A DNA stretch of 64,000 nucleotides from Hamadaea tsunoensis DSM 44101 (lineage in GTDB: Bacteria; Actinomycetota; Actinomycetes; Mycobacteriales; Micromonosporaceae). Location: the NCBI RefSeq assembly GCF_000428945.1, contig NZ_AUAX01000029.1:1-64000 (forward strand), read 5' to 3'. Shown piece after piece: positions 1-60,221 of this stretch (its first letter is position 1; each line of letters begins with the position of its first letter). Both the position numbers and the translations under genes were made by a program. Below the pieces are notes generated by a model, which was given only the letters and a program-made list of their open reading frames with translations, did no database searches and was not told the origin of the DNA.

Positions 1-3000
1 TCCATCGGCAACGTCCAGGTCTACCAGCGCGCGATCACCGCGGCCGAAGCGTCCACCCTGTACGGCAACGGGCTGGCCGGGCGGCCGCTGGGTGATTCGT
101 ACAACACCACTACGTATACCTACGACCAGCGCGGGTTGCAGCTGTCGGAGACCGATCCCCTCGGGAACCGGGCGGACTACGCGTACGACGAGAACGACAA
201 CCTCGTCATCACGACCGGACCGGCCGTCAACGTCGAGACCAACGGCGGTACGCCGGTCTCAGCCCGGCCGGTCACCATCACCGGCTTCGACACCTTCGGC
301 GACGAGGTCGAGGTCCAGGACGCCAGCGGACAGGTCACGAGGATGTCGCGCGACGCCTCCGGCCGCCTGGTGAAGTCCCAGCAGCCGTCGTACACGCCGC
401 CGGGATCCTCGACGCCGATCACGCCGACGGCGAGCGCCACCTATGACGGTTCGGGGCAGCTGCTGACCCAGACCGACCAGCTCGGCAAGACCACCACGTA
501 CGTCTACGACCAGCTCGGCCGTACCGCGAAGGTCACCCTGCCGAACGGCGGTGTCGTCCGCAACGTCTACGACCTCGACGACAACCTTCTGCAGACGACC
601 AATGCGGTCGGTGCGTACTCCCAGGCGACCTACGACTTCGTCGGGCGTACGACGAGCGAGACGCAGACCGAGCGGTCGACCGGGCAGGCGTTCACCACGC
701 AGTACGCGTACGCCCCGAGCGGTTACCTGCAGAAGGTGACGCAGCCGTCGGGGGCGTACGAGACCTACACGTACAACAATGCCGGTGACCGCACGACGGC
801 CACGGACGCGTACGGGAACACGACCACGTACCAGTACGACTATCTCGGTCGCGAGTCCGCGGTCGCGATGCCCGACGGGTCCAAGCGAACGTCGGTGTTC
901 GACGAGGCGGGCAACGAGATCGCCGTCAAGGCGTACAGCTCGACGGGCGCGCTGATCTCGCAGATCACCTCCGGGTACGACGGCAACGGCAACCGGCTCT
1001 CGGCGACCGACGCGCTCGGCCACACCACCTCGTTCACCTACGACGCGACCGGGTTCGTGACCGGGGAGACGCAGCCGATCTCGGCGACGGGCAACATCGT
1101 CACCTCGTTCGGCTACGACCTGCTCGGCCACCGGACCCGCTACACCGACGGCCGCGGCAACAAGCACATCACCACCTACAACACCCTCGGCCTGACCGAA
1201 TCGCAGATCGAACCGGCCACGGCCACGGACGCCAACGACCGCACCTGGACGACGAGCTACGACGCCGCCGCCCAGCCGGTCAAGCAGACGATGCCCGGTG
1301 GGGTCACGCTCACGTCGGCGTACGACGACCTGGGTAACCTGATCGGCCAGACGGGTTCGGGGGCAGACGCCGCGACGGCCGACCGGACCTTCGGCTACGA
1401 CCTGGCCGGGCACCTCACCTCGGCCAAGGCGGGCACCGCCACGGAGACGTTCACCTACAACGACCGTGGTGCGCTCGCGACCGCCAGCGGGGCGTCCGGC
1501 GCCTCGACCTTCGGCTACACCGCCGACGGCCTGCTCGCCAGCCGGCAGGACGCCGCCGGGACGAGCACGTACGCGTACGACAACGCCGACCGGCTCGTCA
1601 CGGTGAACGACGGCAGCACGGGGCAGAGCGTCACCTACGGGTACGACAGTCTGTCCCGGTTGACGAAGGCGACCTACGGGGCGAGCGGCTATCGCGCGTA
1701 TACCTACGACGCGGCCAGCCGCCTGGCGTCGGACACGTTGAAGACGTCGGCCAATGCCACGGTCGCGTCGGTGTCCTACGGCTACGACCTCAACGGCCGG
1801 GAGACGTCCAAGACGACGACCGGCTTCGCGGGATCGGCCACGAACACCTACACCTACGACTGGGCCAGCCGGCTCCTGTCGTGGAACAACGGCACGACCA
1901 CGACGACGTACGCGTACGACGCCTCCGGCAACCGGACGCAGATGGGCGGGCGCACGCTCATCTACGACGAGCGCGACGAGCTGACCGGCGACGGGCAGAA
2001 GACGTACACGTACACGCCGCGCGGGACGATGGCCTCGGCGGTCGCGAGCGGGTCGACGGAGACCTACGCCAGCGACGCCTACGGCCAGCAGACCCGTATA
2101 GCCACGCAGAACTACACCTATGACGGGCTCGGCCGGGTTCTCACCTCGGGCTCGACCACCCTCGCGTACTCCGGTGCGGAGAACGACGTCGCTTCGGACG
2201 GGGCGGCGACCTACAGCCGCGACCCCGACGGCGATGTCGTGGGGGTGAAGGCCGGGACCGCCGTGTTCGCCTGGACCGACCAGCACACCGACGTCGTCGG
2301 CCAGTTCACGGCGGCGGGGACGGCGCTCACGGGTTCCACGGCGTACGACCCGTTCGGCAACGTCCTGGCCACCGCGGCCAAGCTGGGCAACCTGGGCTTC
2401 CAGTCGGAGTGGACCGATCCGGCGACCGCCCGGGTGAACATGCTGTCGCGGTGGTACGACCCGGCGATCGGCGCGTTCGACAACCGGGACACCGCCGACA
2501 ACGACCCGGTGCCGGACTCGATCGACGCCAACCGCTACCAGTACGGCGACGGCGACCCGCTGCTCACCGTCGACCCGACCGGGCACTGGGGCTGGAACCC
2601 GATCAAGGCCATCAAGAAGGCCGTCAAGAAGGTCTCGCACGCGGTCTCGCACTATGCGAGCTCGTCCTTCAACTACGCGGCCATGTACGCCCACTCGGCC
2701 TGGCACGCCACCACGCACGTCGTGCACAAGGCGGTCAAGGCCGTCAAGAAGGTCGTGCACAAGGTGAAGAAGGCGGTCCACCGGATCGCCCGAGCGGTGA
2801 AGCACGCGGTACACCGAGCGGTCCACTACGTGCGGCATGTGGTGAAGAAGGCCACGCACTGGGTGAAGCACACCTATCAGCGGGCCAAACACTGGGTCGG
2901 CAAACAGGTCAACCACATCAAGCAGAAGGTCAAGCAGGCGTACCACCGGGTCAAGCAGGCCGCCGCGCACGTGGTGCAGAAGGTGGCCAAGGCCGCCAAG

Positions 3001-4290
3001 AGCGTCGCCCATGCGGTGAAGGACGCCTACAACGCCAGCGCCACCTGGGTGAAGGAGCATAAGGACGCGATCATCCAGATCGGCGCCATCGTCGCCGGCG
3101 TCGCGGCGGGCCTTGCCTGCACGGCGGTCACCGGCGGAGTCGGGGCGGCCGCCTGCGCGGTCGGTGCCGCGGCACTGATCAACCTCGGCAAGGACGCCGC
3201 GACCGGCAACATCCACAGCTTCGGCGACGCTCTCGGGTCCCTCGGGCAGGGCGCGTTGCAGGGCGGGATCGGTCTGGTCACCGGTGGCGTCGGCGGCGTG
3301 GTCGCGGGCAAGCTCGCCGGGGCCATGGGCGGCTTCGCGGCCAAGCTCGGCGGCCGGATGGTCTCCGGGTTCGTGGCCGGTGCCGTGGGAGACATCGGCG
3401 CGCAGCTCATCGGTACCGGACACGTCAACTGGACGGGTGTGGCGATCGCGGGCGGCATCGGCGCCGTCATGGGTGGACGGGCGTCGAGCTGCCACAGCTT
3501 CGACCCTTCGACCAGGGTCCTGATGGCCGACGGTACGACGAAGGCGATCAAGGACGTCAAGATCGGTGACGAGGTCATGGCCACCGACCCGGTCACCGGC
3601 AAGTCCAGTGCCCGGCCGGTCACGGCGCTCTATGTCAACCATGACACCGATCTCGCGGACGTCACCGTCAAGGACGCCGCGACGGGCAGGACCGCGGTTC
3701 TGCGTACCACGCAGCACCACCCGTTCTGGAGCCGATCGGCGAAGGCGTGGGTCCTCGCCGCCGCGCTCGTGCCGGCGACGATGTTGCAGGCCGCACCCAC
3801 CACGGCGTACGCGGCGGCGGGCGAAAGCGTGGTCTCGGTCCGCTCGTGGACCGGCGGGGCCGAGATGCGCGACCTCACGGTCGACGTGGACCACACCTAC
3901 TACGTCGTCGCGGGGACCACGCCGATCCTCGTCCACAACAACAACGCCGCGTGCGTACGCCCGACGTTCGTGGCGGATTCCCGCGGTACGGTGGTTCCGA
4001 CGAGCGCGTCACGCTTGGAGGGCGGGTTGCAGGCTGCCGTCGACGCGGGTGAGCCGGGATTCAGCACGTTCCCGGTGAAATCCGCCGGGACCGGCTTCCA
4101 GCTGCCGGATGGAAGCCGCATCCGGGTCATGCAGCCGTCGGCGAACGGTAACGCCGGACTCCGCGCATCCTTCACCAACGGATCCGACGCACCGGTCAGC
4201 CCGTTCACGGGTAAACCGGTGCAGCCGCCGAAGGGGGTCAACTCCAAGCAGTACGTCCGCGAGCGTACCCATATCGAGTTGGAGCCGTAG
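1..4290 (+). CDS. RHS/YD-repeat polymorphic toxin with Hint domain (5' truncated)
   Basis: The frame is open from base 1, so the N-terminus lies outside the window; 1,429 codons are visible. Codons 1-760 carry many YD repeats (YDxxGN/Y-YD-GR style). An RHS core ending follows (SRWYDPAIGAFDNRD, then YQYGDGDPLLTVDPTG). Codons about 865-1020 are unusually Lys/His/Val rich, followed by Ala/Gly hydrophobic segments. A pretoxin-Hint (intein-like) domain begins at the Cys near codon 1164 (CHSFDPSTRVLMADG), contains TTQHHPFW, and ends in VHNN near codon 1314. About 110 residues of C-terminal toxin remain, with PVSPFTGKPVQPPKG and a final YVRERTHIELEP. RHS proteins form a cage that carries a toxic tip used in interbacterial competition; the toxin family here is not recognised. 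The next gene overlaps by one base and is the likely immunity partner. Confidence 0.9.
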   Translation, partial: SIGNVQVYQRAITAAEASTLYGNGLAGRPLGDSYNTTTYTYDQRGLQLSETDPLGNRADYAYDENDNLVITTGPAVNVETNGGTPVSARPVTITGFDTFGDEVEVQDASGQVTRMSRDASGRLVKSQQPSYTPPGSSTPITPTASATYDGSGQLLTQTDQLGKTTTYVYDQLGRTAKVTLPNGGVVRNVYDLDDNLLQTTNAVGAYSQATYDFVGRTTSETQTERSTGQAFTTQYAYAPSGYLQKVTQPSGAYETYTYNNAGDRTTATDAYGNTTTYQYDYLGRESAVAMPDGSKRTSVFDEAGNEIAVKAYSSTGALISQITSGYDGNGNRLSATDALGHTTSFTYDATGFVTGETQPISATGNIVTSFGYDLLGHRTRYTDGRGNKHITTYNTLGLTESQIEPATATDANDRTWTTSYDAAAQPVKQTMPGGVTLTSAYDDLGNLIGQTGSGADAATADRTFGYDLAGHLTSAKAGTATETFTYNDRGALATASGASGASTFGYTADGLLASRQDAAGTSTYAYDNADRLVTVNDGSTGQSVTYGYDSLSRLTKATYGASGYRAYTYDAASRLASDTLKTSANATVASVSYGYDLNGRETSKTTTGFAGSATNTYTYDWASRLLSWNNGTTTTTYAYDASGNRTQMGGRTLIYDERDELTGDGQKTYTYTPRGTMASAVASGSTETYASDAYGQQTRIATQNYTYDGLGRVLTSGSTTLAYSGAENDVASDGAATYSRDPDGDVVGVKAGTAVFAWTDQHTDVVGQFTAAGTALTGSTAYDPFGNVLATAAKLGNLGFQSEWTDPATARVNMLSRWYDPAIGAFDNRDTADNDPVPDSIDANRYQYGDGDPLLTVDPTGHWGWNPIKAIKKAVKKVSHAVSHYASSSFNYAAMYAHSAWHATTHVVHKAVKAVKKVVHKVKKAVHRIARAVKHAVHRAVHYVRHVVKKATHWVKHTYQRAKHWVGKQVNHIKQKVKQAYHRVKQAAAHVVQKVAKAAKSVAHAVKDAYNASATWVKEHKDAIIQIGAIVAGVAAGLACTAVTGGVGAAACAVGAAALINLGKDAATGNIHSFGDALGSLGQGALQGGIGLVTGGVGGVVAGKLAGAMGGFAAKLGGRMVSGFVAGAVGDIGAQLIGTGHVNWTGVAIAGGIGAVMGGRASSCHSFDPSTRVLMADGTTKAIKDVKIGDEVMATDPVTGKSSARPVTALYVNHDTDLADVTVKDAATGRTAVLRTTQHHPFWSRSAKAWVLAAALVPATMLQAAPTTAYAAAGESVVSVRSWTGGAEMRDLTVDVDHTYYVVAGTTPILVHNNNAACVRPTFVADSRGTVVPTSASRLEGGLQAAVDAGEPGFSTFPVKSAGTGFQLPDGSRIRVMQPSANGNAGLRASFTNGSDAPVSPFTGKPVQPPKGVNSKQYVRERTHIELEP

Positions 4291-10007: not shown

Positions 10008-10174
10008 CGGCCGAAGTCTCCCACAGTCCCATTCAAGATCAAATCCAGCTTCTCGCTTCCGCGCCGTCGCTCTTCCGCTTCCATCCGGGAATACGCGTTG
10101 CGGCGCCGACGGCTCCCGGGGACACCTCCGATACCGGGCGATCGAGCTGTCTCTGTCGAGTGGTCCGCCGCGGG

Positions 10175-10320
10175 TGATCGTTTACCGCTATTACGGCATT
10201 CCGTGGCGCATGACCGTGATCAAATACCGTCTATCCGGCAGGGGAGCGCTCTCCTGCCGAAATGACGGTATTTGATCAAGGAGATCGGTATCGCGGTGCC
10301 GAAATAGCGGTACTTGATCA
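10175..10320. repeat. Family A intergenic element, copy A1 (146 bp)
   Basis: Four 24-bp units: 10175-10198 and 10217-10240 forward, then 10255-10278 and 10297-10320 reversed, with spacers of 18, 14 and 18 bp. Unit consensus is TGATCAAATACCG-N6-CGGCA; its CCG-N6-CGG core is itself a dyad. The two inner units and the central GGGAGCGCTC form one long imperfect palindrome of about 62 bp. It lies between the ABC permease stop and the histidine-kinase start. The same layout recurs at 34649-34794 and 56915-57060. No target-site duplication is obvious. The flanks 10008-10174 and 10321-10371 show nothing else recognisable. Confidence 0.95.
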
Positions 10321-10371
10321 AGGTGGTCGGGCTGGCGACCGGGCTGGACTTCTCCACGTCATCAAGGACAC

Positions 10372-20686: not shown

Positions 20687-20850
20687 GGGTCTCTCCAAGA
20701 TATGGGGATGTTCGTTGCGCGCGCCCAAATCCTGCTGGGATACAGAGGTGGTGGTCAATGTCTCGTACGGTCCCCGAACAATCGCCGAACCTGTCCCGTT
20801 CGTCGGACCGCAACCGCCCCGCCCCGCCGCCCCGCCGGCCCGAGCTTGCG

Positions 20851-20920
20851 ACGATCTTGCGCGAATGTCCGGGCCTTTCCGGCATACCGGACGGATTTCG
20901 GGGCATTCGCGCAAGATCGT
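20851..20920. repeat. Family B intergenic hairpin element, copy B1 (70 bp)
   Basis: Left arm 20851-20870 (ACGATCTTGCGCGAATGTCC) and right arm 20901-20920 pair with one mismatch around a 30-nt centre that contains a smaller TCCGG-CATA-CCGGA hairpin. A second copy of exactly the same arm length and span is at 27826-27895. It lies between the divergent glycoside hydrolase and membrane protein genes; the rest of the 308-bp gap shows nothing clear. Confidence 0.9.
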
Positions 20921-27820: not shown

Positions 27821-27900
27821 CCTCGACGATCTTGCGCGAATGTACCGGCATTCCGGGCATTCATCGCGATTTTTGGGACATTCGCGCAAGATTGTCGAGG
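27821..27900. repeat. Family B intergenic hairpin element, copy B2
   Basis: The core 27826-27895 matches copy B1 in length (70 bp) and arm sequence. Here the pairing extends outward by 5 bp (CCTCG/CGAGG), giving 26-bp arms with two mismatches around a 28-nt centre. It lies between the convergent DUF1801 and small secreted protein genes, so it could also serve as a terminator at this site. Confidence 0.9.
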
Positions 27901-31766: not shown

Positions 31767-32768
31767 CTACTGCGGGTTCTGGACGATGAACTCGACCCGG
31801 CGGTTGATCGCGCGGTTGTGGTCCGAGGTGTTGGGCACCTTGGGCCGCGACTCGCCGAAACCGTTGGAGGACAAGCGTTCCCTGGCCACACCGAGCGAGA
31901 CGAGGGTGTTGAGCACGGTCGCGGCGCGGGCCTTGCTCAGCGCCAGGTTGTGCTCGGCCGTGCCGGTGCTGTCGGTGTGCCCCTCGATCCGCACGGTGAC
32001 GGCCGGGTTGGCCTTGAGGATCGTCGCCGCCTTCGCGACGGCGGCCCGGCCCGCCGGGGTGAGGATCGCGCTGTTGTCCTCGAAGGTGATCGGCGGCAGG
32101 CTGATCAGCGCCCGCTGGATCTCCTTCGGCGGCGGCGCGACCGTCAGCTGGTCGGACACGTTCGCGACGCCGACGGCCTGCCCGGCCGCCGCGATCACGG
32201 CGTCGTGCACGGCGGCCGACTCGACCTGACCGCTGATGTTGATCCGGCCGTCGGCCAGCGTGACCGTCACGCCCTTCGCGGTCGTGCCGAGCGCGTCGAC
32301 GACCGCGCCGAGGCCGGACACGCCGTCCTCGGTCACCGCCGGGTCGACGGTGAGGCCGGCCTGCGTACCGGCCTTGGACTGCAGGGCCGCCTTCGCGGTC
32401 GCGCTCGCCACGACACCGGTGACCGTCACCTGCGTACCTTCGACGGTGATCGTCACCGACGGCTTCTTCTGCGGTGCCGCCGGGCCGGTCACGTCGACGA
32501 CGCGTACGCCGTCCAGGCCGGCGACGATGTCCCGGGCCTTGTCCACGTCCGCCGCGTTCGACACCACGACCGAGCCGTCCCGGCCGGCGAAGCTGACCTG
32601 CGTACCGGTGATGCCCGCGGCCTGCAGGGCCTGGTTCGAGCGGCCGGTGAGATTGTCCTCCATGGAATGCCGGTTGCCGATGTTCTGGAAGAACCCGATC
32701 ACCAGCAGGCCCGCGACGCCGACGGAGAGACCGACCCAGAGCGGCAGCCGCCGCGCCTGCGCGCTCAC
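31767..32768 (-). CDS. BON-domain/OmpA-family envelope protein
   Basis: 333 residues. One membrane helix at about 8-28 (LPLWVGLSVGVAGLLVIGFF) anchors it. Repeated BON-like modules follow (QAGLTVDPAVTEDGVSGLG, GRINISGQVESAAVHDAVIAAA, ending VSDQLTV). A C-terminal OmpA/MotB peptidoglycan-binding domain is at about 225-333 (ITFEDNSAILTPAGRA, IEGHTDSTGTAEHNLALSKARA, RAINRRVEFIVQNPQ). This is the architecture of mycobacterial ArfA/OmpATb. It should tie the membrane to peptidoglycan. The ATG overlaps the stop of the upstream HhH gene by 4 bp. Confidence 0.9.
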   Translation of the reverse strand: MSAQARRLPLWVGLSVGVAGLLVIGFFQNIGNRHSMEDNLTGRSNQALQAAGITGTQVSFAGRDGSVVVSNAADVDKARDIVAGLDGVRVVDVTGPAAPQKKPSVTITVEGTQVTVTGVVASATAKAALQSKAGTQAGLTVDPAVTEDGVSGLGAVVDALGTTAKGVTVTLADGRINISGQVESAAVHDAVIAAAGQAVGVANVSDQLTVAPPPKEIQRALISLPPITFEDNSAILTPAGRAAVAKAATILKANPAVTVRIEGHTDSTGTAEHNLALSKARAATVLNTLVSLGVARERLSSNGFGESRPKVPNTSDHNRAINRRVEFIVQNPQ

Positions 32769-33574
32769 TCGCGACCCTCGTCCCGGCCCGCGACCAGGCG
32801 GCGGGTGAGGTCGGCGTGACCGTCGTGGTCACCGTCGGCCAGCAGCCGCGCCTGACGCGCCCACGTCACGATGCTCGGCGCGAAGTTCAGGCCCTGGGCC
32901 TCGATCGCGGTACGCAGGGCGGTCTCGTCGGCGTCGGCGAGCTGCGCCCACGTCCGGATGCCGGCCTTGTGCAGGGCGCCCTCCATCTTCGGGCCGATGC
33001 CCTCGATGCGCTGCAGGTTGTCGGGCTCGGGCTCCTCGACGTCCTCGATGGCCTCGACCTCGGGCGCGGCGGCCTGGACGGGAATCGGGGCCTCCTCGAC
33101 CCGCGCTTCCGGCTCGGGCTCGGGCTCCGGCTCGGGCTCTGGTTCGGGTTCCGGCTCGGCCGCGGGCTCCTCCGCCGGGGTCTCGTCGACCGCCACCGGT
33201 ACGACGACCGGCTCCTCGACGACCGCCTCTTCTTCGGCCGGCTCCGCCACGACCGGCTCTTCCGCGACCGGCTCTTCCGCGACCGGCTCAGTTACGACCG
33301 GCTCAGCTACCACCGGCTCTTCCACGACCGGCGCCGCGACGGCTGCTTCCTCCACGACCGGCTTGGCCGACGCCGGCTTGGCTGAGGCCGGTTTGGCTGA
33401 GGCCGGTTTCGCCGAGGCCGGCTTGGCCGTCGCGGGCTCCGCCGAGGCGACCGCCGCCGGGGCCGACGACCGTTCGCCCCGCAGCAGGCGGCCCCAGACG
33501 AGCCAGCCGACGAGCAGTCCCAACAGGAACGCCACTGCGATGATTACTACTGACTGACCGATGAACCAAGTCAC
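32765..33574 (-). CDS. Membrane-anchored low-complexity protein with helix-hairpin-helix domain
   Basis: 269 residues. The GTG at 33574 is set by a perfect GGAGG seven bases upstream; the open frame before it is not used. One membrane helix (about 5-27, SVVIIAVAFLLGLLVGWLVWG), then about 150 residues of low complexity: KPASA repeats, EEPVVAEPV repeats and a long Glu-Pro run. The C-terminal 75 residues contain LQRIEGIGPKMEGALHKAGI, a helix-hairpin-helix (DUF4332-like) often seen in envelope and DNA-binding proteins. It is co-translated with the OmpA-family gene, so probably part of the same envelope unit. The repeat region is prone to slippage. Confidence 0.85.
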   Translation of the reverse strand: MTWFIGQSVVIIAVAFLLGLLVGWLVWGRLLRGERSSAPAAVASAEPATAKPASAKPASAKPASAKPASAKPVVEEAAVAAPVVEEPVVAEPVVTEPVAEEPVAEEPVVAEPAEEEAVVEEPVVVPVAVDETPAEEPAAEPEPEPEPEPEPEPEPEARVEEAPIPVQAAAPEVEAIEDVEEPEPDNLQRIEGIGPKMEGALHKAGIRTWAQLADADETALRTAIEAQGLNFAPSIVTWARQARLLADGDHDGHADLTRRLVAGRDEGRE

Positions 33575-33712
33575 CTGGAACCTCCGCGCGCGAGACCCCG
33601 CCTGGATCTCCGGTGCGGAAGCATTCCATATCCGTCGCTCGCGCAGGTCGCCTGGTGAGTCCATCCGGGCCCACCGACCGGTCAGAACCCGCATCCGTTC
33701 ATGCGGCGACCC

Positions 33713-34456: not shown

Positions 34457-34648
34457 GGCCCTCATCGTGACCCGGTCGACGCCACCGGGAAACAGCCACA
34501 CGGAGGCGATTGGCCTGCTCGGAAATCGGGTCTCCGGTCGTATGTGGGCAGTTCGCCTGCGGTCATCCCGCTCGTGGTACGCGTCGAGGTCCCGACGTTC
34601 CGTCGACAGTAGTCGCTTTCCGTGCACCGGTCGACGCGAACCCCGCCT

Positions 34649-34794
34649 TGATCAAATACCGCCATTGCGGCACAGCGCCGCCGATTTCCTTGATCAAATA
34701 CCCTCATTTCGGCACAGGGGGGCGCTCTTGCCGGATAGACGGTATTTGATCAAGGAAATCAGGCCCCGCTTGCCGTAATGGCGGTATTCGATCA
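34649..34794. repeat. Family A intergenic element, copy A2 (146 bp)
   Basis: Units 34649-34672 and 34691-34714 (forward), 34729-34752 and 34771-34794 (reverse), with spacers again exactly 18, 14 and 18 bp. The central spacer contains GGCGCTC, related to the AGCGCT core of A1 and A3. The element lies between the phosphodiesterase and the infC paralogue, 166 bp before the leader ORF. Confidence 0.95.
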
Positions 34795-34830
34795 CCCTGC
34801 AAACCCCGACACGGTCGAACCGGCCATGAA

Positions 34831-34846
34831 CAAGATCCTGATCTTG
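34831..34846. promoter_or_regulatory. 16-bp inverted repeat upstream of infC
   Basis: CAAGATC-CT-GATCTTG, perfect 7-bp arms, 37 bp after element A2 and 113 bp before the leader ORF. Candidate operator or remnant of a larger element. Confidence 0.4.
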
Positions 34847-34959
34847 CCAACCGCGCTCAACCCTGCCACATGCAGGTGATGAATGGAAAACCGTTCGACG
34901 GGCGCCGGTCGCCGTGCGATGCTGCGGGCGACTTCGACTGATGTGAGGGAGGTGACGCC

Positions 34960-35010
34960 ATGGATCGCGAGACGACGATTCGCCCGGGCGCCGCCTCCGA
35001 TCCGGAGTAG
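34960..35010 (+). CDS. Leader ORF upstream of the infC paralogue (16 codons)
   Basis: ATG at 34960 with GGGAGGTG six bases upstream, the best ribosome site in the region, encoding MDRETTIRPGAASDPE and stopping at 35010. It ends 57 bases before infC. A GCCCGGGC element within it and a second one at about 35023 could pair alternatively. A translation-linked leader controlling infC is a reasonable inference, since infC autoregulates in many bacteria. Too short for homology. Confidence 0.5.
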   Translation: MDRETTIRPGAASDPE

Positions 35011-35067
35011 GTCGCACTTGCCGCGCCCGGGCCGCCCACGCCCGTACGCGCAAGGAGCTGATCATTC

Positions 35068-35631
35068 TTGGACCGATCCCGTTTCGGGAAGACCGACGGT
35101 GACAAGCGTCGTGTCACCGCTGAACCACGTGTCAACGACCAGATCCGGGCCGCCGAGATCCGTCTCGTCGGACCGGACGGCGAGCAGGTCGGCGTCGTCG
35201 ACCTGACCCGGGCCCGGCAACTGGCCGCCGAGGTCGGGTTGGACCTGGTGGAGGTGGCGCCGAACGCCCAGCCACCCGTCTGCAAGATCGTCGATTACGG
35301 CAAGCACAAGTACGACGCCGGCCTCAAGGCCCGCGAGGCGCGGCGCAACCAGCAGCAGACGACCGTGAAGGCGATGAACTTCCGGCCGAAGATCGACCAG
35401 CACGACTTCGAGACGAAGAAGGGGCACGTGCTGCGGTTCCTGCGGGCCGGCAGCAAGGTGAAGGTCACCATCTGGTTCCGGGGGCGCGAGCGCTTCCGGC
35501 CGGAGCTCGGCCTGAGGGTCCTCAACAAGCTCGCGGAGGAGATCGCGCAGGACGCGGTCGTCGAGAGCGAGCCGCGCCAGGACGGCCGCAACATGGTGAT
35601 GGTCGTCGCGCCGCTGAAGTCCCGTTCGTGA
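35068..35631 (+). CDS. infC: Translation initiation factor IF-3, stand-alone paralogue
   Basis: 187 residues. The start must be the TTG at 35068: an in-frame TGA lies at 35059 and GGAG is at 35054-35057. The N-domain ([49 protein letters not shown]) and C-domain ([51 protein letters not shown]) are complete. IF-3 binds the 30S subunit and polices initiator tRNA and start-codon choice. rpmI and rplT, which normally follow infC, are absent, a terminator comes immediately and the next gene is convergent. It is therefore probably a second infC copy. Rare start codons are a known feature of infC and permit self-regulation. Confidence 0.93.
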
Positions 35632-44424: not shown

Positions 44425-44474
44425 GGGTCTCTCCTGTCCGCGCCGTGGACCACGACGACGCAAGGGGGGTCAGC

Positions 44475-44561
44475 GATTCGGGCAGGTAATCCGACTCGTC
44501 CCGAAGGACCTACGGCTGCGGGCCAGTGCCGGAATTCGACCGGCTTCCCCTGCCCAGAATC
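44475..44561 (-). promoter_or_regulatory. Cobalamin riboswitch (short form) controlling the ECF transporter operon
   Basis: Read on the minus strand: GATTCTGGGCAG (44561-44550) pairs with CTGCCCGAATC (44485-44475) as P1. Between them are GGGGAAGCCGGTCGAATTCC, then CACTGGCCCGCAGCCGTA, then GAGTCGGATTACCTGCCC. These are the conserved B12-riboswitch segments (GGGAA, CCGGT-gaA-tCCGG, CxGxCCCGCAxCGGT, AGTCGGATACCTGCC). At about 87 nt it lacks the long side arms of the nrd copy and is closer to the short class II type. About 50 nt separate it from the GTG of the surface protein, whose ribosome site it could mask. Confidence 0.85.
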
Positions 44562-44567
44562 ACCGCC

Positions 44568-44597
44568 ATCCGACCACACCGGAACACACCGCGTCAA
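44568..44597 (-). promoter_or_regulatory. Predicted promoter of the ECF operon
   Basis: Minus strand TTGACG (44597-44592), 18 bp, TCGGAT (44573-44568). A start about 7 bases on would fall at about 44561, exactly the first base of the riboswitch P1 stem, which supports both calls. Confidence 0.5.
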
Positions 44598-44631
44598 CGC
44601 GTACGCCTCGGTCGGCAAGCGCGACACGCCG

Positions 44632-44678
44632 CCACAGCATGTTGTGTTGAACGAAGAGGGTGCCCCCATATATGGTGT
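44632..44678 (+). promoter_or_regulatory. nrdAB promoter with two NrdR boxes
   Basis: Box 1 CCACAGCATGTTGTGT (44632-44647) and box 2 CCCCCATATATGGTGT (44663-44678) match the NrdR consensus acaCwAtATaTwGtgt at 12 and 11 of 16 positions and are 31 bp apart, three helical turns, the usual NrdR spacing. TTGAAC (44647-44652) and TATATG/ATATGG about 16-17 bp later are the likely -35 and -10, so NrdR would sit on the promoter. Confidence 0.75.
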
Positions 44679-44861
44679 GCGTGTTGCTGGTTCGGCCGAT
44701 CTGGTCGAGGCAAGAGGGAACCCGGTGCGAATCCGGGACTGCCCCGCAGCGGTGAGCGGGAACGACCGCCGTCAACAGCACTGGGCCGCCGGCCTGGGAA
44801 GCGACGGCCAGTAGGCGACTCGAAAGAGTCTTCGCCCGCGAGTCCGAAGACCTGCCAGCGC
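44676..44861 (+). promoter_or_regulatory. Cobalamin riboswitch controlling nrdAB
   Basis: Conserved B12-aptamer segments in order: GTTGCTGG (P1 5' side), GAGGGAACCCGGTGCGAATC, CCGGGACTGCCCCGCAGCGG, then a variable arm, CACTGGGCCGCCGGCCTGGGAAG, and the closing AGTCCGAAGACCTGCCAGC at 44841-44859. Complete long-form AdoCbl type. In Streptomyces an equivalent element represses nrdABS when cobalamin is abundant (established). It is immediately followed by a hairpin that can serve as expression platform. Confidence 0.93.
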
Positions 44862-44885
44862 ACCGCGTGCCGGACGGCACGCGGT
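44862..44885 (+). terminator. Riboswitch expression-platform hairpin
   Basis: ACCGCGTGCC-GGAC-GGCACGCGGT, perfect 10-bp stem with a tetraloop, starting directly after the riboswitch core; its left strand abuts the P1 closing strand. No U-run follows, as is common for high-GC terminators. Confidence 0.65.
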
Positions 44886-45005
44886 GGTCGAAGGCCGCGC
44901 GGGACGGCCGACGCCGCAGCTGGGTCCGGCCATGCGCCGGCCCGGCGGCGTCCCCCTGCGCGCCCGGCGACCGCTGTGGCGACGACGAGGGGGAATGACC
45001 ACGTG

Positions 45006-47366
45006 ATGCAGGTACGCAAACGCGACGGCCGGCTGGAGCCGGTCGACGTGAACAAGATCGTGCGGGCGGTCGAGCGGTGGGCCGGCGACCTGGACGAGGT
45101 GGACCCGCTGCGGGTCGCGACGAAGACGATCAACGGCCTGTACGACGGCGCGTCGACGGCGGAGCTGGACCGGCTGTCGATCCAGACGGCCGCCGAGCTG
45201 ACCGGCGAGGAGCCGCAGTACTCGAAGCTGGCCGCCCGGCTGCTGGTCGCCTACGTCGCCGAGGAGGTACGCGACCAGGGCGTGGCCGCGTTCAGCGAGT
45301 CCATCCGCTACGGACACCAGCTGGGCCTGATCGGCGACACGACGGCCGACTTCGTGGCCCGGCACGCCGCCGAGCTCGACGCGGCCGTCGACGAGTCCAA
45401 CGACCTGCGGTTCGAATACTTCGGGGTACGCACGGTCGCCGACCGCTACCTGCTGCGCCACCCGCAGACCCGGCTGGTCGTCGAGACGCCGCAGTACTGG
45501 CTGCTGCGCGTGGCGTGCGGGCTGTCGTCGACCGCCGAGGAGGCGATCGGCTTCTACCGGCTGATGTCGAGCCTGGCCTACCTGCCCAGCTCGCCGACCC
45601 TGTTCAACTCCGGCACGCGGCACACCCAGATGTCGTCGTGCTTCCTGGTCGACTCGCCGCGCGACGAACTGGACTCGATCTACGAGCGGTACCACCAGGT
45701 GGCGCGGCTGTCGAAGTTCTCCGGCGGGATCGGGATCTCGTGGTCGCGCGTACGCGGCCGGGGCGCGCTGATCCGCGGGACGAACGGGACGTCCAACGGG
45801 ATCGTGCCGTTCCTCAAGACCCTCGACGCCGGGGTGGCCGCCGTCAACCAGGGCGGCCGGCGCAAGGGCGCGGCCTGCGTCTACCTCGAACCGTGGCACC
45901 CGGACATCGAGCAGTTCCTGGAGCTGCGCGACAACACCGGCGAGGACGCGCGGCGTACGCACAACCTGAACCTGGCCAACTGGCTGCCCGACGAGTTCAT
46001 GCGGCGGGTCGAGGCCGACGGCGAATGGTCGCTCATCGACCCGTCCGACGCCCCGGACCTGCCGGACCTGTGGGGGGAGGAGTTCGAGGCGGCGTACCGG
46101 GCGGCGGAAAAGAAGGCCGTGAAGACCGTCAAGGCCCGCGACCTCTACGGCCGGATGATGCGTACGCTCGCCCAGACCGGCAACGGCTGGATGACGTTCA
46201 AGGACGCCGCGAACCGGCTGTCGAACCAGACCGGCGCGCCGGGCAACGTGATCCACCTGTCGAACCTGTGCACCGAGATCCTCGAGGTCAACAGCGACGA
46301 GGAGACCGCGGTCTGCAACCTCGGCTCGATCAACCTCGGGGCGCACGTCACCGCCGACGGCGTCGACTGGGCGAAGCTGCGCGCGACCGTGCGTACGGCG
46401 GTGGTGTTCCTCGACCGGGTCATCGACATCAACTACTACCCGTCGCAGCAGGCCGAGGCGTCCAACCCGCGCTGGCGGCCGGTCGGCCTCGGCCTGATGG
46501 GCCTGCAGGACGCGTTCTTCACCCTGCGGCTGCCGTTCGACTCCGACGCCGCCCGCGAGCTGTCCACCGCCGTCCAGGAGGAGATCTTCCTGACCGCGCT
46601 GGAGGCTTCCGTCGAGCTCGCCGCGCGGTTCGGCCCGCATCCGGCGTACGCGGAAACCCGTGCCGCCCGCGGTGAGCTGCACCCGCAGCTGTGGGGCGCG
46701 GCGCTGGGCCAGCCCGACCGGTGGAGCGCCGTCCAGGCGCAGATCGCCGAGCACGGGCTGCGCAACTCGCTGCTGATCGCGATCGCGCCGACGGCGACCA
46801 TCGCCTCGATCGCCGGCTGCTACGAGTGCATCGAGCCGCAGGTGTCCAACCTGTTCAAGCGCGAGACGATGTCCGGCGAGTTCCTGCAGATCAACACCTA
46901 CCTCGTACGCGAGCTCAAGGACCGCGGCCTGTGGACCGCCCCGGTCCGCGAGCGGATCAAGCGGGCCGAAGGTTCGGTGGCCGACCTGGCCGAACTGCCG
47001 GCCGAGGTCCGCGAACTGTTCCGCACGGCCTGGGAACTGCCGCAGCGGGCGTTGATCGACCTGGCCGCGGCGCGGGCGCCGTTCATCGACCAGTCGCAGT
47101 CGCTGAACCTGTTCCTCAGCGCGCCGACGATCGGCAAACTCTCCTCGATGTACCTGTACGCCTGGAAGTCGGGCCTGAAGACGACCTACTACCTGCGTTC
47201 GCGGCCGGCGACCCGGATCCAGCAGGCGACCGTGGCGGTGCTGCCCGCCCAGGCTGCTCCTGCTCCTTCCGTTGCCAGCCCGTCCCTTGCCGGCCCGGCT
47301 CTTTCCATGGCGCCCGTGGTGGCGCTGACGCTCGAGAACCCCGAAGTCTGCGAGGCCTGCCAGTGA
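45006..47366 (+). CDS. nrdA: Class Ia ribonucleoside-diphosphate reductase, large subunit
   Basis: 786 residues, full length. ATG 45006 with GAGGGGGAA upstream (a GTG one codon before is the alternative). The ATP-cone is at 1-90 (MQVRKRDGRLEPVDVNKIVRA). Active-site features: QMSSCFLVD Cys near 212, NLCTEILEVN near 422, and the radical-transfer tyrosines in SSMYLYAWKSGLKTTYYLR near 715. The C-terminal redox pair is CEAC at 782-785, regenerated by thioredoxin. It makes deoxyribonucleotides from ribonucleoside diphosphates. Controlled by the cobalamin riboswitch and NrdR boxes upstream. Stop overlaps nrdB by GTGA. Confidence 0.97.
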   Translation: MQVRKRDGRLEPVDVNKIVRAVERWAGDLDEVDPLRVATKTINGLYDGASTAELDRLSIQTAAELTGEEPQYSKLAARLLVAYVAEEVRDQGVAAFSESIRYGHQLGLIGDTTADFVARHAAELDAAVDESNDLRFEYFGVRTVADRYLLRHPQTRLVVETPQYWLLRVACGLSSTAEEAIGFYRLMSSLAYLPSSPTLFNSGTRHTQMSSCFLVDSPRDELDSIYERYHQVARLSKFSGGIGISWSRVRGRGALIRGTNGTSNGIVPFLKTLDAGVAAVNQGGRRKGAACVYLEPWHPDIEQFLELRDNTGEDARRTHNLNLANWLPDEFMRRVEADGEWSLIDPSDAPDLPDLWGEEFEAAYRAAEKKAVKTVKARDLYGRMMRTLAQTGNGWMTFKDAANRLSNQTGAPGNVIHLSNLCTEILEVNSDEETAVCNLGSINLGAHVTADGVDWAKLRATVRTAVVFLDRVIDINYYPSQQAEASNPRWRPVGLGLMGLQDAFFTLRLPFDSDAARELSTAVQEEIFLTALEASVELAARFGPHPAYAETRAARGELHPQLWGAALGQPDRWSAVQAQIAEHGLRNSLLIAIAPTATIASIAGCYECIEPQVSNLFKRETMSGEFLQINTYLVRELKDRGLWTAPVRERIKRAEGSVADLAELPAEVRELFRTAWELPQRALIDLAAARAPFIDQSQSLNLFLSAPTIGKLSSMYLYAWKSGLKTTYYLRSRPATRIQQATVAVLPAQAAPAPSVASPSLAGPALSMAPVVALTLENPEVCEACQ

Positions 47367-55623: not shown

Positions 55624-56358
55624 CTATAGCGCGTACAGGCAGATGGTGAGGGCGATGACGATCGCGAGCCCGTAGCCGCCGGCGGCGAGGGCGACGACGC
55701 GGACCTGGCGCGCTTCCGGCCACGGCAGGCGCGCGAGGATCGCGGCGAGCGCGGGTAGCACGAGTACGCCGTGCAGGCTGATCGCGTGCACCGGCTTGAG
55801 GAACCCTCCCAGCCGGTACGCGAGTTCCTGGTGCCCGGTGTTGGTGAGCACGACCCCGCGGGCGATCATGGCGGCGCCGGACGCCAGGCCGATGAGCAGC
55901 GTGATGAACCCTGCTTGTAGTGCGAGCCGCATGCCGGCCGGGGCGTCCGGCGGGTGGCGGAGGGCGTTGACGGCGAAGGCGACCAGCACGACGACGAGCA
56001 CCGCGCCGCCGAAGGCGAGCGTCATCGCGACCGACCGGTTGATCGTGGTCGACATGTTGAAGTGCGACGGTACGCCGCGCCAGGCCTGGACGGTGATCCC
56101 GAGGACCTCCAGCACGCAGTCGGCGGCGAAGACGGCGAGCAGGATGGTCCGCAGCCGCGGGGAGATCCGCAGGTAGGAGGTCACCCAGGTGATCGTGGCC
56201 AGCGTCAGGCCGAACGACAGTCCGAACGTCGCCGGCTTGCGCCAGGAGACCGGGCCTTCCCACGGCCCGCCGGCGACCAGGAACACCGCCAGGTGGAACA
56301 GGCCGGCGCCGACGAGGAGCGCGGCGATCCGGTAGGCGGCACGGTCGATGGTTCGCAT
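55624..56358 (-). CDS. Polytopic membrane protein, unknown function
   Basis: 244 residues, seven predicted helices, starting MRTIDRAAYRIAALLVGAGLFHLAVFL. Conserved-looking loops: GGPWEGPVSWRKPATFGLSFG and WRGVPSHFNMSTTINRSVAM. The pattern recurs in actinobacterial integral membrane proteins without assigned function; no transporter or enzyme motif is seen. Tail to tail with the MFS gene. Confidence 0.78.
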   Translation of the reverse strand: MRTIDRAAYRIAALLVGAGLFHLAVFLVAGGPWEGPVSWRKPATFGLSFGLTLATITWVTSYLRISPRLRTILLAVFAADCVLEVLGITVQAWRGVPSHFNMSTTINRSVAMTLAFGGAVLVVVLVAFAVNALRHPPDAPAGMRLALQAGFITLLIGLASGAAMIARGVVLTNTGHQELAYRLGGFLKPVHAISLHGVLVLPALAAILARLPWPEARQVRVVALAAGGYGLAIVIALTICLYAL

Positions 56359-56446
56359 GGGGGACAGCCTCGCGCATCGGCGGCGGGACCGCGTCCGCCC
56401 GGTGGCGGCATCCGCGCCTACTCCACCGGCAGTACGCGCGGTGGGG

Positions 56447-56475
56447 TTCGTCGGCCACAAATTCGTCGGCCACAA
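56447..56475. repeat. 14-bp direct repeat
   Basis: TTCGTCGGCCACAA at 56447-56460 and 56462-56475, a 15-bp period, immediately upstream of the zinc-ribbon gene; the second copy supplies a CACAAT -10-like hexamer. Confidence 0.8.
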
Positions 56476-56482
56476 TGACGTC

Positions 56483-56872
56483 GTGACCGATGATCGGACA
56501 ATGCCCGGCGGCTTCCAGCCGTTCGACGAGCGGGTCCGGCGGCTGCGCGATGCGTGGGTCGCGGGTGGACGCGATCAGGCTCTGCTCACCACGGGAATGA
56601 CGTACTTCGCGGTCTACTGCTGGGGGATGAACTACCGGATCGGCGACCCGGCGGCTCCGGCGTACGATGCCGGCCTGGCGGAGTTCGTCACCGCCTCGTA
56701 CGAGTACAACGGCGGGGCGGACGGCTGGATCACCCTGCTCCACGGCCGTGAGTACTGCTCGACCTGCGGTGACCGGTTCAGGTTGGAGAACCTCGGGATC
56801 TGCACGGGCTGCCTGCGCCACACCTGCTACGGCTGCGGCCGACACGCCGGCTGCCCCGGCGAACTGCTGTAG
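56483..56872 (+). CDS. Small protein with C-terminal zinc-binding cluster
   Basis: 129 residues from GTG 56483 (MTDDRTMPGG). Residues 15-90 are a soluble domain with VYCWGMNYRIGDP and TASYEYNGGADGWITLLHG. The last 38 residues hold four Cys pairs, CSTCGDRF, CTGCLRHT, CYGCGRHA and a final Cys, like a treble-clef or double zinc ribbon. No ribosome site, so possibly leaderless. Function unknown; the Cys cluster suggests nucleic-acid or protein binding. Confidence 0.7.
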   Translation: MTDDRTMPGGFQPFDERVRRLRDAWVAGGRDQALLTTGMTYFAVYCWGMNYRIGDPAAPAYDAGLAEFVTASYEYNGGADGWITLLHGREYCSTCGDRFRLENLGICTGCLRHTCYGCGRHAGCPGELL

Positions 56873-56914
56873 AGAACGCCTTCTGGCCACAGGGAGGCTG
56901 TGGGTCGATCGTCG

Positions 56915-57060
56915 AGATCGAATACCGCTATGACGGCACCGCGATGCCGATTCTCTTGATCGAATACCGCTATCGTGGCAAGAGAGCGCTTTCATGCCGT
57001 ATTGACGGTATTTGATCACGATGCTGGGGCCGGGACTGCCGTCATGGCGGTAAATGATCA
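56915..57060. repeat. Family A intergenic element, copy A3 (146 bp)
   Basis: Units 56915-56938 and 56957-56980 (forward), 56995-57018 and 57037-57060 (reverse), spacers 18, 14 and 18 bp as in A1 and A2. The two left units read GATCGAATACCG rather than GATCAAATACCG, while the right units keep TTTGATCA or AATGATCA. The centre is AGAGAGCGCTTTC. It lies between the zinc-cluster gene and the AfsR-type regulator. Confidence 0.95.
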
Positions 57061-57181
57061 CCGGCCGCCGGGGTGTTCGGCTTGAGTGCAGGCGGCCCGA
57101 TTCTTGCAGCTCCCCGGCTCTTGATCATGCAGGTGACGCGTACGCGGCAGGCCACGCCTCCAAGGGGCCGGGGCGCAGAAA

Positions 57182-57197
57182 TACGTCATCTGACGTA
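57182..57197. promoter_or_regulatory. 16-bp palindrome upstream of the AfsR-type gene
   Basis: TACGTCA-TC-TGACGTA, perfect 7-bp arms, 177 bp before the start. It could be an operator for an autoregulated or cAMP-type/GntR-type regulator. The rest of the 314-bp gap shows nothing clear. Confidence 0.5.
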
Positions 57198-57374
57198 GGC
57201 GAGCTCGCCGGTTGGTTGCCTAGCGTCGACACCGCGAGGTCACCGCGATCGTCCGCGATTTTCATCCGTACGCACACCGCGCCGGGACGCTTCGTCCCCG
57301 CGTACGCGTGATCGTGTTGGGCGGCGATCTGAGGTGACTCCAAGTCTGTTGCTGGATGAGGCGGTGGGGTTGTC

Positions 57375-60221
57375 ATGTCACGGGACGAGCTGCGGTTCGC
57401 GGTGCTGGGACCGGTACGGGCGTGGCGCGGCGCCGAGGAGATCGATCTGGGGGCGCCGCAGCAGCGGGCTTTGCTGGCGTTGCTGGTCGCGCGGGCGGGT
57501 GAGCCGGTCAGCCTGGACCAGGCCGTGGATGTGCTCTGGGGAGTGGACCCGCCGGGCACCGCGGTGAACGTGGTACACCGGCACGTCGGTGTGCTGCGCC
57601 GGCTGCTGGAGCCGGATCTGGCGGTGCGGTCGGCGGGCCGGTGGCTGCTGCGTTCGGCCGGCGGCTACCGGCTGGACGTCGACGGCGACGTGGTCGACGT
57701 GCTGCGGTTCCGTGCGTTGAACCGGCAGGCGCGCCAGGCGTCCGACGCCGGCCGCGCCGCCACGCTGTACGCGGAGGCGCTGGAGCTGTGGCATGGCGTG
57801 TGCGCGGCGGGCCTGGACGCCGATGTCCGCGCGCACCCGGTTTTCGCGGCGCTGGAACGGGAGTACCTGGCCACGGCGAGGTACGCCGCCGAGGCGGGTG
57901 TCCAGGCCGGGCAGGTGCATCGGCTGCTGCCGCTGTTGCGGGAGGCCGCGGTGCGGGCCCCGCTCGACGAGCCGTTGCAGGCGGGTCTGGTGCTGGCGCT
58001 GGCGGCGGCCGGTCAGCAGGCCGAGGCGCTCGCCGTCGTTCAGCGGGTCCGCGAGCAGCTGGCCGACGATCTCGGTGTCGATCCGGGCGCCGAGCTGACC
58101 GCGGCGTACGCGGCGGTCCTGCGGCGTGACGCCGGGCGAACGGATGCCGCGGTCGCGCCGGTGCAACGGCCGAGGCCCGCGCAGCTGCCGGCGGATCCGG
58201 CGTCGTTCGTGGGCCGCCGGACGGAACTGGCCCGGGCGCTGTCGTTGCATGCCGGCGGTGACGCGGCGGCGACGGTGGTGATCGGTGCCGTGGGCGGCAT
58301 GGCGGGGGTGGGGAAGACGACCCTCGCGGTGCACTGGGCGCATCAAGTCGCCGATCAGTTCGCCGACGGCCAGCTGTACGTGAATCTGCGCGGATTCTCG
58401 GCGGAGCCGGAGGTCATGCGTCCGGAGCAGGCGCTGCGCGGTTTCCTGGACGCGCTCGGCGTCGCCCCGCAGAACGTCCCGGTCGAGGTGGACGCCCAGG
58501 CGGCGCTCTATCGCAGCCTGCTGACCGGCCGCCGGATGCTGGTCCTGCTGGACAACGCCCGGGACGTCGAGCAGGTGCGGCCGCTGCTGCCGGGGGCGGG
58601 TGGCTGCCTCGCGATCGTCACCAGCCGCAACGCGATGACGGGGCTGGTCGCCGCCGAGGGCGCGCAGTCGCTGACGCTGGACGTGTGGCCCGCCGACCAG
58701 GCCCGTGACTTCCTCGCCCGCCGGCTCGGCGCCGACCGGGTGGCCGCGGAGCCCGAGGCCGTGGAGCACATCGTCACGCTGTGCGCCGGGCTGCCGCTGG
58801 CGCTGGCCATTGTGGCGGCCCGGGCCGTCACGAATCCCGCGTTTCCCCTGGCCGTCTCCGCGGCGGAGTTACGGGAGGCGCACGGCAGCCTCGAAGCGTT
58901 CAGCGGCGCCGACGCGGGTACCAACGTGCGGGCGACGTTCTCCTGGTCGTACCGGACGCTCAGCCCCGAGGCCGCGCGGCTGTTCCGGCTCCTGGGCACT
59001 CTGGCCGGACCGGATGTCGGCCTGGCCGCGGCGGCGAGCCTGGTCGGTGCGCCGGTCCGGCAGGTGCGGCCGCTGCTCGCCGAACTGACCGCGGCCCACC
59101 TGCTCCTGCAGCCCTCACCCGGCCGGTTCGGGTTCCATGAGCTGCTGGCGGCGTACGCGGCGGAGCTGGCCGAGACGGTCGACGGGGTGGCCGAGTCGGA
59201 TCTCGCCGGCCGGCGGATCGTCGAGTACTACCTGCGCGCGGTGTCGCGGGCGGACCACCTGCTGCTGCCGAAGCGGATACCCGCGCGGCTCGACCGGCCG
59301 CCGGTCGACGGTCACGTCGTCGACGAGCCGATGGCGGATCAACCCGCGGCGCTGGCCTGGCTGACCGCCGAGCGGGCCGTGCTGACCGCGCTGATCGAAC
59401 GGACCGCCCGGGACGGCCGGCATGTCGAGACGCGGTCCCTCGCCGACCGCCTGGACGCCTTCCTGCACCGGCAGGGGCACTGGCACGACTGGGTCGCGGC
59501 CCGCCGCCACGCGCTGCTCGCGACCGAGCGCGGCGCCGACCGGGCCGCCCTGGCCGGCGCGTACCGCGGCCTCGGGCACGCGCTGACCCAGGTGCGTCGT
59601 CACGACGAGGCACGTGCCCAGTTCACGCTCGCCCTGGCCGGTTTCGACGGCACCGGCGACCGCACGGAGCAGGGCCATGTCTACCGCGGGATCGCGCGCA
59701 CCTACGTGCACGAGGGCCGGTACGCCGAGATGGTGCGCCATTGCGAGCTGGCCGGCGACCTCTACCGGGCCGACGGCAACGACAACGGGTACGCCAAGGC
59801 GCTCAACGAGGCCGGTTTCGGGTACGCGCACCTCGGCGACTTCGCCACGGCGCTGCGGAACTGCACGGCGGCGCTGGCGATCTTCGAGCGGCTCGGCGAC
59901 CGGCACGGCCAGGCGGCCACATTGGACAGTATCGGCTACGCCCACCACCGTCTCGGTGATCACCGGGTCGCCATCGAGTTCCTCGGCCGCGCGCTGCAGA
60001 TGTGTCGCGAGGTTGGCGAACGGTACGGCGAGGCCGAGACGCTGATGCACCTGGGCGACGCGTGGCAGGCCTACGCGGACGGCAGGGCCGCCGCGGAGCA
60101 CTGGCGGGCGGCGGAGGCGATCCTCGTCGAGCTCGGCCATCCCGATCTTGAGCGGGTCCGGGCCAGTCTCGCCGCGGCCGCGCCGCCCGCGTACCAGGGG
60201 GCATTGGTCACAGGCTCGTGA
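57375..60221 (+). CDS. AfsR/SARP-family regulator with NB-ARC and TPR domains
   Basis: 948 residues. Residues 1-95 form an OmpR-type winged helix (FAVLGPVRAWRGAEEIDLGAPQQRALLALLV). Residues 95-245 form the bacterial transcriptional activator domain (GGYRLDVDGDVVDVLRF through DDLGVDPGAELTAAY). The NB-ARC ATPase spans about 265-545, with P-loop GGMAGVGKTTLAVHW near 308, LLDNARDVEQVRPLLPG and CAGLPLALAI. From about 720, TPR repeats (GDFATALRNCTAALAIFERLGDRHGQAATLDSIGYAH). These proteins switch on secondary-metabolite or development genes in response to ATP and partner binding. No biosynthetic cluster is evident in the window, so the target is unknown. Tail overlaps the SDR gene by 14 bp. Confidence 0.95.
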   Translation: MSRDELRFAVLGPVRAWRGAEEIDLGAPQQRALLALLVARAGEPVSLDQAVDVLWGVDPPGTAVNVVHRHVGVLRRLLEPDLAVRSAGRWLLRSAGGYRLDVDGDVVDVLRFRALNRQARQASDAGRAATLYAEALELWHGVCAAGLDADVRAHPVFAALEREYLATARYAAEAGVQAGQVHRLLPLLREAAVRAPLDEPLQAGLVLALAAAGQQAEALAVVQRVREQLADDLGVDPGAELTAAYAAVLRRDAGRTDAAVAPVQRPRPAQLPADPASFVGRRTELARALSLHAGGDAAATVVIGAVGGMAGVGKTTLAVHWAHQVADQFADGQLYVNLRGFSAEPEVMRPEQALRGFLDALGVAPQNVPVEVDAQAALYRSLLTGRRMLVLLDNARDVEQVRPLLPGAGGCLAIVTSRNAMTGLVAAEGAQSLTLDVWPADQARDFLARRLGADRVAAEPEAVEHIVTLCAGLPLALAIVAARAVTNPAFPLAVSAAELREAHGSLEAFSGADAGTNVRATFSWSYRTLSPEAARLFRLLGTLAGPDVGLAAAASLVGAPVRQVRPLLAELTAAHLLLQPSPGRFGFHELLAAYAAELAETVDGVAESDLAGRRIVEYYLRAVSRADHLLLPKRIPARLDRPPVDGHVVDEPMADQPAALAWLTAERAVLTALIERTARDGRHVETRSLADRLDAFLHRQGHWHDWVAARRHALLATERGADRAALAGAYRGLGHALTQVRRHDEARAQFTLALAGFDGTGDRTEQGHVYRGIARTYVHEGRYAEMVRHCELAGDLYRADGNDNGYAKALNEAGFGYAHLGDFATALRNCTAALAIFERLGDRHGQAATLDSIGYAHHRLGDHRVAIEFLGRALQMCREVGERYGEAETLMHLGDAWQAYADGRAAAEHWRAAEAILVELGHPDLERVRASLAAAAPPAYQGALVTGS

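Follow-up and report, generated by a model that had tools for sequence, protein, structure and literature searches.

The closest described systems are the REPIN/BIME populations, in which REP doublets are moved by RAYT transposases (cited sections of PMC3116915 and PMC3733652). As those sections portray them, they resemble the interspersed elements of Hamadaea tsunoensis reported here in being high-copy, extragenic and near-palindromic with inverted units at preferred distances, and in forming several families per genome and mosaic clusters (PMC3116915, PMC3733652). Relative to the same descriptions, the H. tsunoensis elements differ in having 24-bp units in the order forward-forward-reverse (FFR) or forward-forward-reverse-reverse (FFRR) and not paired short hairpins, in sharing one grid among families of different sequence, and in showing no clear covariation and no detected Y1_Tnp gene. 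A search for Y1_Tnp (PF01797)/RAYT at E <= 0.001 was positive in none of the four genomes of the genus, and the control was found in 5 of 14 named genomes. The original prediction for this locus had listed a REP-like element among its nearest ideas; with no Y1_Tnp/RAYT gene detected in H. tsunoensis or its three congeners, this idea lacks one of its defining features.

Prokaryotic MITEs, reviewed in PMC10969869, are likewise short, non-coding, intergenic and multi-copy, and the roughly inverted ends seen here, beyond which copied blocks reach, may be a further resemblance; by contrast, the elements here have no clear target-site duplication, their copied blocks have ragged ends, and no parent element or transposase was found among the neighbours of the fetched copies. 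In its workings the element resembles a REPIN/BIME or MITE population, yet searches for a RAYT gene, a consistent tag and a clear target-site duplication found none of these. In multi-site transposon ends of the Tn7, Mu and Tn552 type, each end carries direct binding sites facing the other end, and the tips read 5'-TG...CA-3'. Direct sites facing the other end and 5'-TG...CA-3' tips also occur here, an analogy that may serve as a lead only, and the lack of a clear target duplication is again the point of difference.

Family A copies in the window

The window, meaning the whole stretch of 64,000 nucleotides of H. tsunoensis DNA that was analysed, contains three copies of family A (Table 1). Each consists of four 24-bp units in the order forward, forward, reverse, reverse with spacers of 18, 14 and 18 bp, exactly to the base as originally predicted. 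Unit matches at up to three mismatches numbered 12, all at the predicted positions, against a shuffled expectation of 0.03 (the largest count in 100 shuffles being 1). The copies align without a gap and keep the three spacer lengths throughout, and their sequences differ, again as predicted: read on the plus strand, identity to copy 2 is 71% for copy 1 and 72% for copy 3. All three lie between gene calls made with a crude GC-frame caller, in agreement with the predicted intergenic location.

Parts of the earlier description needed correction. The unit is indeed 24 bp long, but the letters first given for it were too strict; the real unit is looser and reads TGATC[A/G], three variable bases, A/G-CC-G, six unspecified bases and CGGC[A/G], with unit 1 in family orientation usually being TGATCRTTTACCG. 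The architecture is identical in layout but not in orientation, copy 1 standing in family orientation and copies 2 and 3 being reversed relative to it. No B module (see below) was seen at copies 1 and 2, and one B-type unit is retained at copy 3.

Table 1. Positions of the family A copies, the B-module remnant and the surrounding intergenic regions in the window
Feature	Position	Strand	Details
Copy 1, family A	10175..10320	+	units 10175-10198 F, 10217-10240 F, 10255-10278 R, 10297-10320 R
Copy 2, family A	34649..34794	-	units 34649-34672, 34691-34714, 34729-34752, 34771-34794
Copy 3, family A	56915..57060	-	units 56915-56938, 56957-56980, 56995-57018, 57037-57060
B-module remnant adjoining copy 3, one B-type 24-bp unit	57104..57127	-	unit match with 7 mismatches
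Intergenic region around copy 1, 364 bp	10008..10371	.	flanked in tandem by a sensor histidine kinase gene and an FtsX permease gene
Intergenic region around copy 2	34466..35247	.	flanked by a calcineurin-like phosphoesterase gene (-) and an IF-3-like gene (+), whose start is possibly further upstream
Intergenic region around copy 3	56359..57374	.	upstream of a BTAD/NB-ARC/TPR regulator gene; shorter if the 174-aa ORF at 56348-56872 is real

Several other features were seen in the window. Two divergent cobalamin riboswitches (Rfam) lie 72 bp apart at 44464-44598 (minus strand) and 44671-44873 (plus strand); the latter, scoring 110.6 bits, is followed by a ribonucleotide reductase gene (44976-47366). 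An RHS-repeat protein with a pretoxin HINT domain is encoded at 1-4290 (plus strand), possibly cut by the window start. A direct repeat with 15-bp steps, in 13 overlapping copies at 33159-33428, is contained in a long ORF (32765-33694, minus strand) with a helix-hairpin-helix match. A 72-nt palindromic repeat, ACGATCTTGCGCGAATGT...ACATTCGCGCAAGATCGT, occurs at 20849-20920 and 27824-27895; it was also seen beside a grid element in locus L163 at about 1579-1653, the same place as about 1889-1963 in L032.

Census, families and spacing

In the 9.48-Mb H. tsunoensis genome, the unit pattern had 200 matches at up to three mismatches (reversed pattern, 3) and 139 at up to two (reversed control, 1). 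At the stricter threshold, 60 relatives gave one or two matches each in 20 genomes and zero in 40, and the three congeners gave 1, 2 and 1, which is chance level. A profile search of the genome, proposed with the original prediction, was run with a sequence-only family A profile built from 36 copies, the best 150 of 6501 first-look candidates being scored; it returned 147 matches on both strands at a minimum of 74 distinct family A places, a count that is possibly too low, takes in the related family A' and holds the identical loci L119 and L120. The 36 aligned rows came from 43 copies after exclusion of five truncated or rearranged ones (L039, L041, L058, L060 and L070) and of L056 and L061, which have a 1-bp change in the central spacer.

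A grid-only pattern, with TGATCA at offsets 0, 42 and 98 and the rest free, had 115 matches in H. tsunoensis and 0 in the reversed control; none was seen in 200 kb of blindly taken blocks of this genome. The pattern was absent from 150 relatives (the three congeners and 147 further genomes), and 7 of the 393 others in a class draw of 394 genomes had one match each, with the proviso that it requires TGATCA tips and that lattices with other tips in other genomes would escape it. The elements are restricted to the H. tsunoensis genome among the genomes searched. Exact unit matches elsewhere comprised one in viral_contigs and nine single ones in genome_contigs, and a phage or plasmid origin was rejected after blastn of 331 bases of locus L068 gave no match in either collection, all these searches possibly leaving out own and very near records.

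Among the grid matches inspected, no fewer than four families could be told apart: A, A', B and D. The outer unit end TGATC[A/G] is common to all four, and the inner part of the unit is family-specific. In 30 of the 36 aligned A copies, a B module stands in front of A, complete or in part; it is built of 24-bp units of its own (TGATCRAGTNCCCGGA..CTGYAG) and joined to A by a linker of 31 to 63 bp, B and A together making an asymmetric composite of about 300 bp. The weaker profile matches belong mostly to A' (TGATCATGTRRCGYYA..YCGGCR). Family D (TGATCATGTNNCNNNTATATGTNG) accounts for 70 units in the H. tsunoensis genome (reversed control, 0) and for none in the three congeners. When the consensus of A is compared with that of B or D, identity amounts to 0.29-0.39 in the spacers and 0.39-0.43 in the inner 18 unit bases; for spacers s1 and s2 it is 0.50 and 0.71 between A and A' and 0.72 and 0.64 between B and D, and for s1 between A' and D it is 0.61. 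The GTAG/CGTC tag is not consistent: in the unit consensus, B unit 1 alone ends in GTAG at its 3' side, and this tag is missing from B units 2 and 3 and from A, A' and D. The phyla named as carrying GTAG or CGTC repeats in the cited section of PMC3733652 do not include Actinobacteria.

A further repeat, TTTGTCGCGACTGTCCGATATGG, often frames A', neighbouring copies being 196-200 bp apart in 9 loci, which represent 7 distinct sequences (L119 and L120 are identical, and L142 and L206 are the same place); both members of the framing pair point the same way, L142/L206 being the exception. This repeat had 96 matches in 722 kb of fetched H. tsunoensis sequence with overlapping loci included, among them L031, L033, L118-L143, L065 and L206, and none in 127.5 kb of the congener G003. 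Facing pairs of it at about 442 bp recur. Where unit 4 stands in family A, the A' and B modules of L196, L200, L202, L205, L206 and L211 carry a GATC; it lies at or beside the point where the third 18-bp spacer ends, and its offset is almost the same.

Unit distances were measured after the units had been found without assumed spacing. Same-orientation neighbours were 42 bp apart in 155 of 156 cases (A 82/83, A' 25/25, B 29/29, D 19/19), and facing neighbours were 38 bp apart in 112 of 119 (A 42/44, A' 24/24, B 28/31, D 18/20) and 37 or 39 bp apart in the others; in these counts A' includes the identical pair L119/L120 and D rests on 70 listed units. The spacing originally described as fixed is so in the window copies, but genome-wide the central spacer is sometimes changed by 1 bp; across the further copies, the spacers do not vary freely.

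On the 36 gapless A copies, parsimony placed 429 substitutions, 4.64 per spacer site versus 2.05 per unit site, the spacers changing 2.3 times faster than the units. The complete copies L056 and L061 have one length change of 1 bp each, both in the central spacer, compared with at least 19 length changes in the B-A linker of 30 copies on the same tree. Because substitutions are many and indels few relative to the linker, the spacers accept new letters and hardly new lengths. The sequence of A has diverged from B and D on an unchanged grid; therefore, length was kept where sequence was not. The original prediction had pointed to selection on geometry, and the finding of four sequence families on one grid supports this beyond the reach of that prediction, making selection on geometry very likely.

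Passive descent would explain the grid by a shared ancestor of the families and by rarity of indels in this genome, with no present selection on spacing. The resemblances of A to A' and of B to D, the s1 shared by A' and D, and the inherited unit-specific differences are consistent with such a history. However, the linker in the same copies has changed length 19 times or more and truncated or rearranged copies exist, so that length change is not rare, and the spacers of A are nearly unalignable with those of B and D at unchanged length. We regard passive descent as decidedly improbable. The positions conserved in every unit are the same, namely TGATC, CC at 11-12 and CGGC at 20-23, a pattern of the kind that a DNA-binding protein would leave.

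Folding and coding potential

The original prediction had offered two alternatives, a multimeric protein-binding site and a structured RNA or DNA cruciform. Under the latter, the near-palindrome would act as a long hairpin, for instance as a terminator-like structure, an RNase III substrate or a single-strand transposition substrate. The fold of copy 1 is very stable on both strands, at -85.5 kcal/mol (z = -10.65) and, on the other strand, -77.9 (z = -10.61), and convergent gaps are favoured (see below). Some covariation measures also exceed shuffles by a little: 39 hairpin cells had changes on both sides versus 30.6 (reached by 45 of 500 shuffles), and the hairpin covariation score was 0.083 versus 0.078 (55 of 500), though relatedness of the sequences alone can raise both measures. 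Within units, pairing was 85.1% versus 84.5% and covariation 0.072 versus 0.063 (26 of 500).

Other measures argue against a conserved structure. Facing-unit pairing (84.3% versus 84.1% shuffled) and the number of pairs changed on both sides (12 versus 12.2) are at the shuffled level, a cross-paired control (81.9% versus 81.9%; covariation 0.077 versus 0.075) is much like the hairpin pairing, and the RNAalifold covariation term is small (-0.49 of -36.28). Certain columns that face each other are mismatched in almost every copy (7/140 and 8/139 in 30 of 36, 59/88 in 33 of 36), and in A', B and D the first unit, which lacks a counterpart to pair with, still conforms to its family. Rfam gave no match to the window copies at gathering score, and three loci had none at E <= 0.5. 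A hairpin can form, but covariation is a weak hint at most; a structured RNA or cruciform is thus quite unlikely, and the multimeric protein-binding site is the better fit of the two. A coding element was considered and rejected: in all six frames the three positions of the codon change equally (2.76-3.06 per site), and even in the best frame at most 7 of 36 copies of the A element are without a stop.

Genomic context, possible mobility and a proposed mechanism

The intergenic bias was confirmed across the genome, 72 of the 74 copies having no gene-call overlap above 30 bp; the other 2 exceed this, and two more overlap by 2 and 19 bp. Gene context could be classified for 66 copies (30 convergent, 28 tandem and 8 divergent), and 6 lay at edges. 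Median intergenic length was 883 bp at the copies versus 144 bp in a sample in which convergent gaps made up 25% of intergenic bases, this background consisting of 20 blocks of which ten were chosen for holding a grid match. No common neighbour gene was seen: among the best 25 of 172 Pfam families matched by 134 flanking proteins, none matched more than 5 proteins and none was a transposase. These proteins were scanned out of 136 selected around the 74 copies (80-700 aa, intact frame), the two of L120 being excluded because this locus repeats L119.

Two orthologous gaps in G003 have collinear flanks and lack the element; measured between alignable flanks in H. tsunoensis and G003, they are 825 versus 169 bp at C1:91603 and 575 versus 63 bp at C17:174763. 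A third candidate, C1:75390, also faces a G003 gap without the element, but the next gene is inverted there and the site was not counted. For copy 3, synteny with G003 begins only at 57391; no syntenic pair surrounds the two copies of L164, and the left side of the first copy of L166 has no match. At an orthologous gap (L170), G003 carries a different long palindrome, TTTTCCGCCAGATCACGG...CCGTGATCTGGCGGAAAA, at about C1 2391250-2391390; repeat families may therefore turn over per species.

A 540-bp B+A block is 98% identical in L038 and L057, in different surroundings. Copied blocks have ragged ends, and copies are nested among other palindromic repeats. The copies overall are not identical recent duplications, although a few close duplicates exist. 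The copied B+A blocks in L057 and L034 were seen to abut a palindromic repeat, AAGATCCCG.TTGGATCAGG...CCTGATCCAAACGGGATCTT, which was not seen at the window copies. Flanking direct repeats showed no clear excess indicative of target-site duplication: the longest averaged 4.15 versus 3.86 (sd 0.21) in 26 copies with B unit 1 and 4.33 versus 3.67 (sd 0.36) in 12 copies without it, four of which have part of B, and repeats of 6 bp or more occurred in 3 of the 26 and 2 of the 12. The element ends, TGATC...GATCA, are roughly inverted, but copied blocks reach beyond them. Because there is no clear target-site duplication and block ends are ragged, no classical transposition unit could be defined.

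A domesticated host site, where a nucleoid-associated protein or regulator binds the grid and shapes the chromosome or expression, would keep the geometry through host benefit. The fixed grid despite diverging spacers is in keeping with this, and a nucleoid-associated site, as suggested in the original prediction, may be what the grid represents. Family A is also unevenly spread, with 1 of 40 full copies versus 16 expected on nine large contigs (3.86 Mb; C2-C7, C9, C10 and C12 of G000, a grouping chosen after seeing the data); family D has 10 of 29 loci on the same contigs, 11.8 being expected. Against a host site, the grid is absent from the three congeners, the 147 further relatives and the two orthologous sites, the flanking genes are diverse, the divergent, promoter-bearing gaps hold just the 8 copies counted above, and copies are nested among other repeats. 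On balance, we consider a host site unlikely.

The explanation that we propose, and to which we give about an even chance, is that these are non-coding, species-restricted, mobile-derived intergenic mosaic repeats whose units are predicted docking sites for a multimeric DNA-binding protein, most likely a mobilising enzyme. The working part would be a rigid grid of putative 24-bp docking sites. Two of these are direct and separated by 42 bp, equal to four helical turns; an inverted third one follows at 38 bp, and family A has a fourth after another 42 bp. Each site would combine the common TGATC[A/G] tip with the family-specific inner part, allowing one shared and one family-specific contact. 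Such a protein would need its sites at fixed spacing and rotation, and for this reason substitutions in the spacers would be tolerated and length changes would not. It would most probably be the enzyme responsible for copying or moving the elements in the past, with a host factor possibly acting on the common TGATC part, and the families may reflect co-diverged specificities.

That four families have strongly diverged and yet none was found in the congeners, a sample of three genomes of which one is 87% complete, implies either fast divergence in one lineage or an old acquisition with loss elsewhere. More tentatively, the elements may represent a new class of interspersed element that is conserved in geometry and not in sequence, in which a TGATC tip and an exchangeable 18-bp inner address are set on a 42/38(/42) lattice and coexisting families would each form a multimeric protein-DNA complex of the same type. 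Our literature search found no description of this lattice, which does not prove that none exists. The usual definition of interspersed repeats in bacteria rests on sequence and hairpin, whereas here the lattice outlives the sequence. The lattice offers a testable handle on the way such repeats are recognised and propagated in a lineage without a detected RAYT transposase, and further cases may be found by searching for spacing instead of letters.
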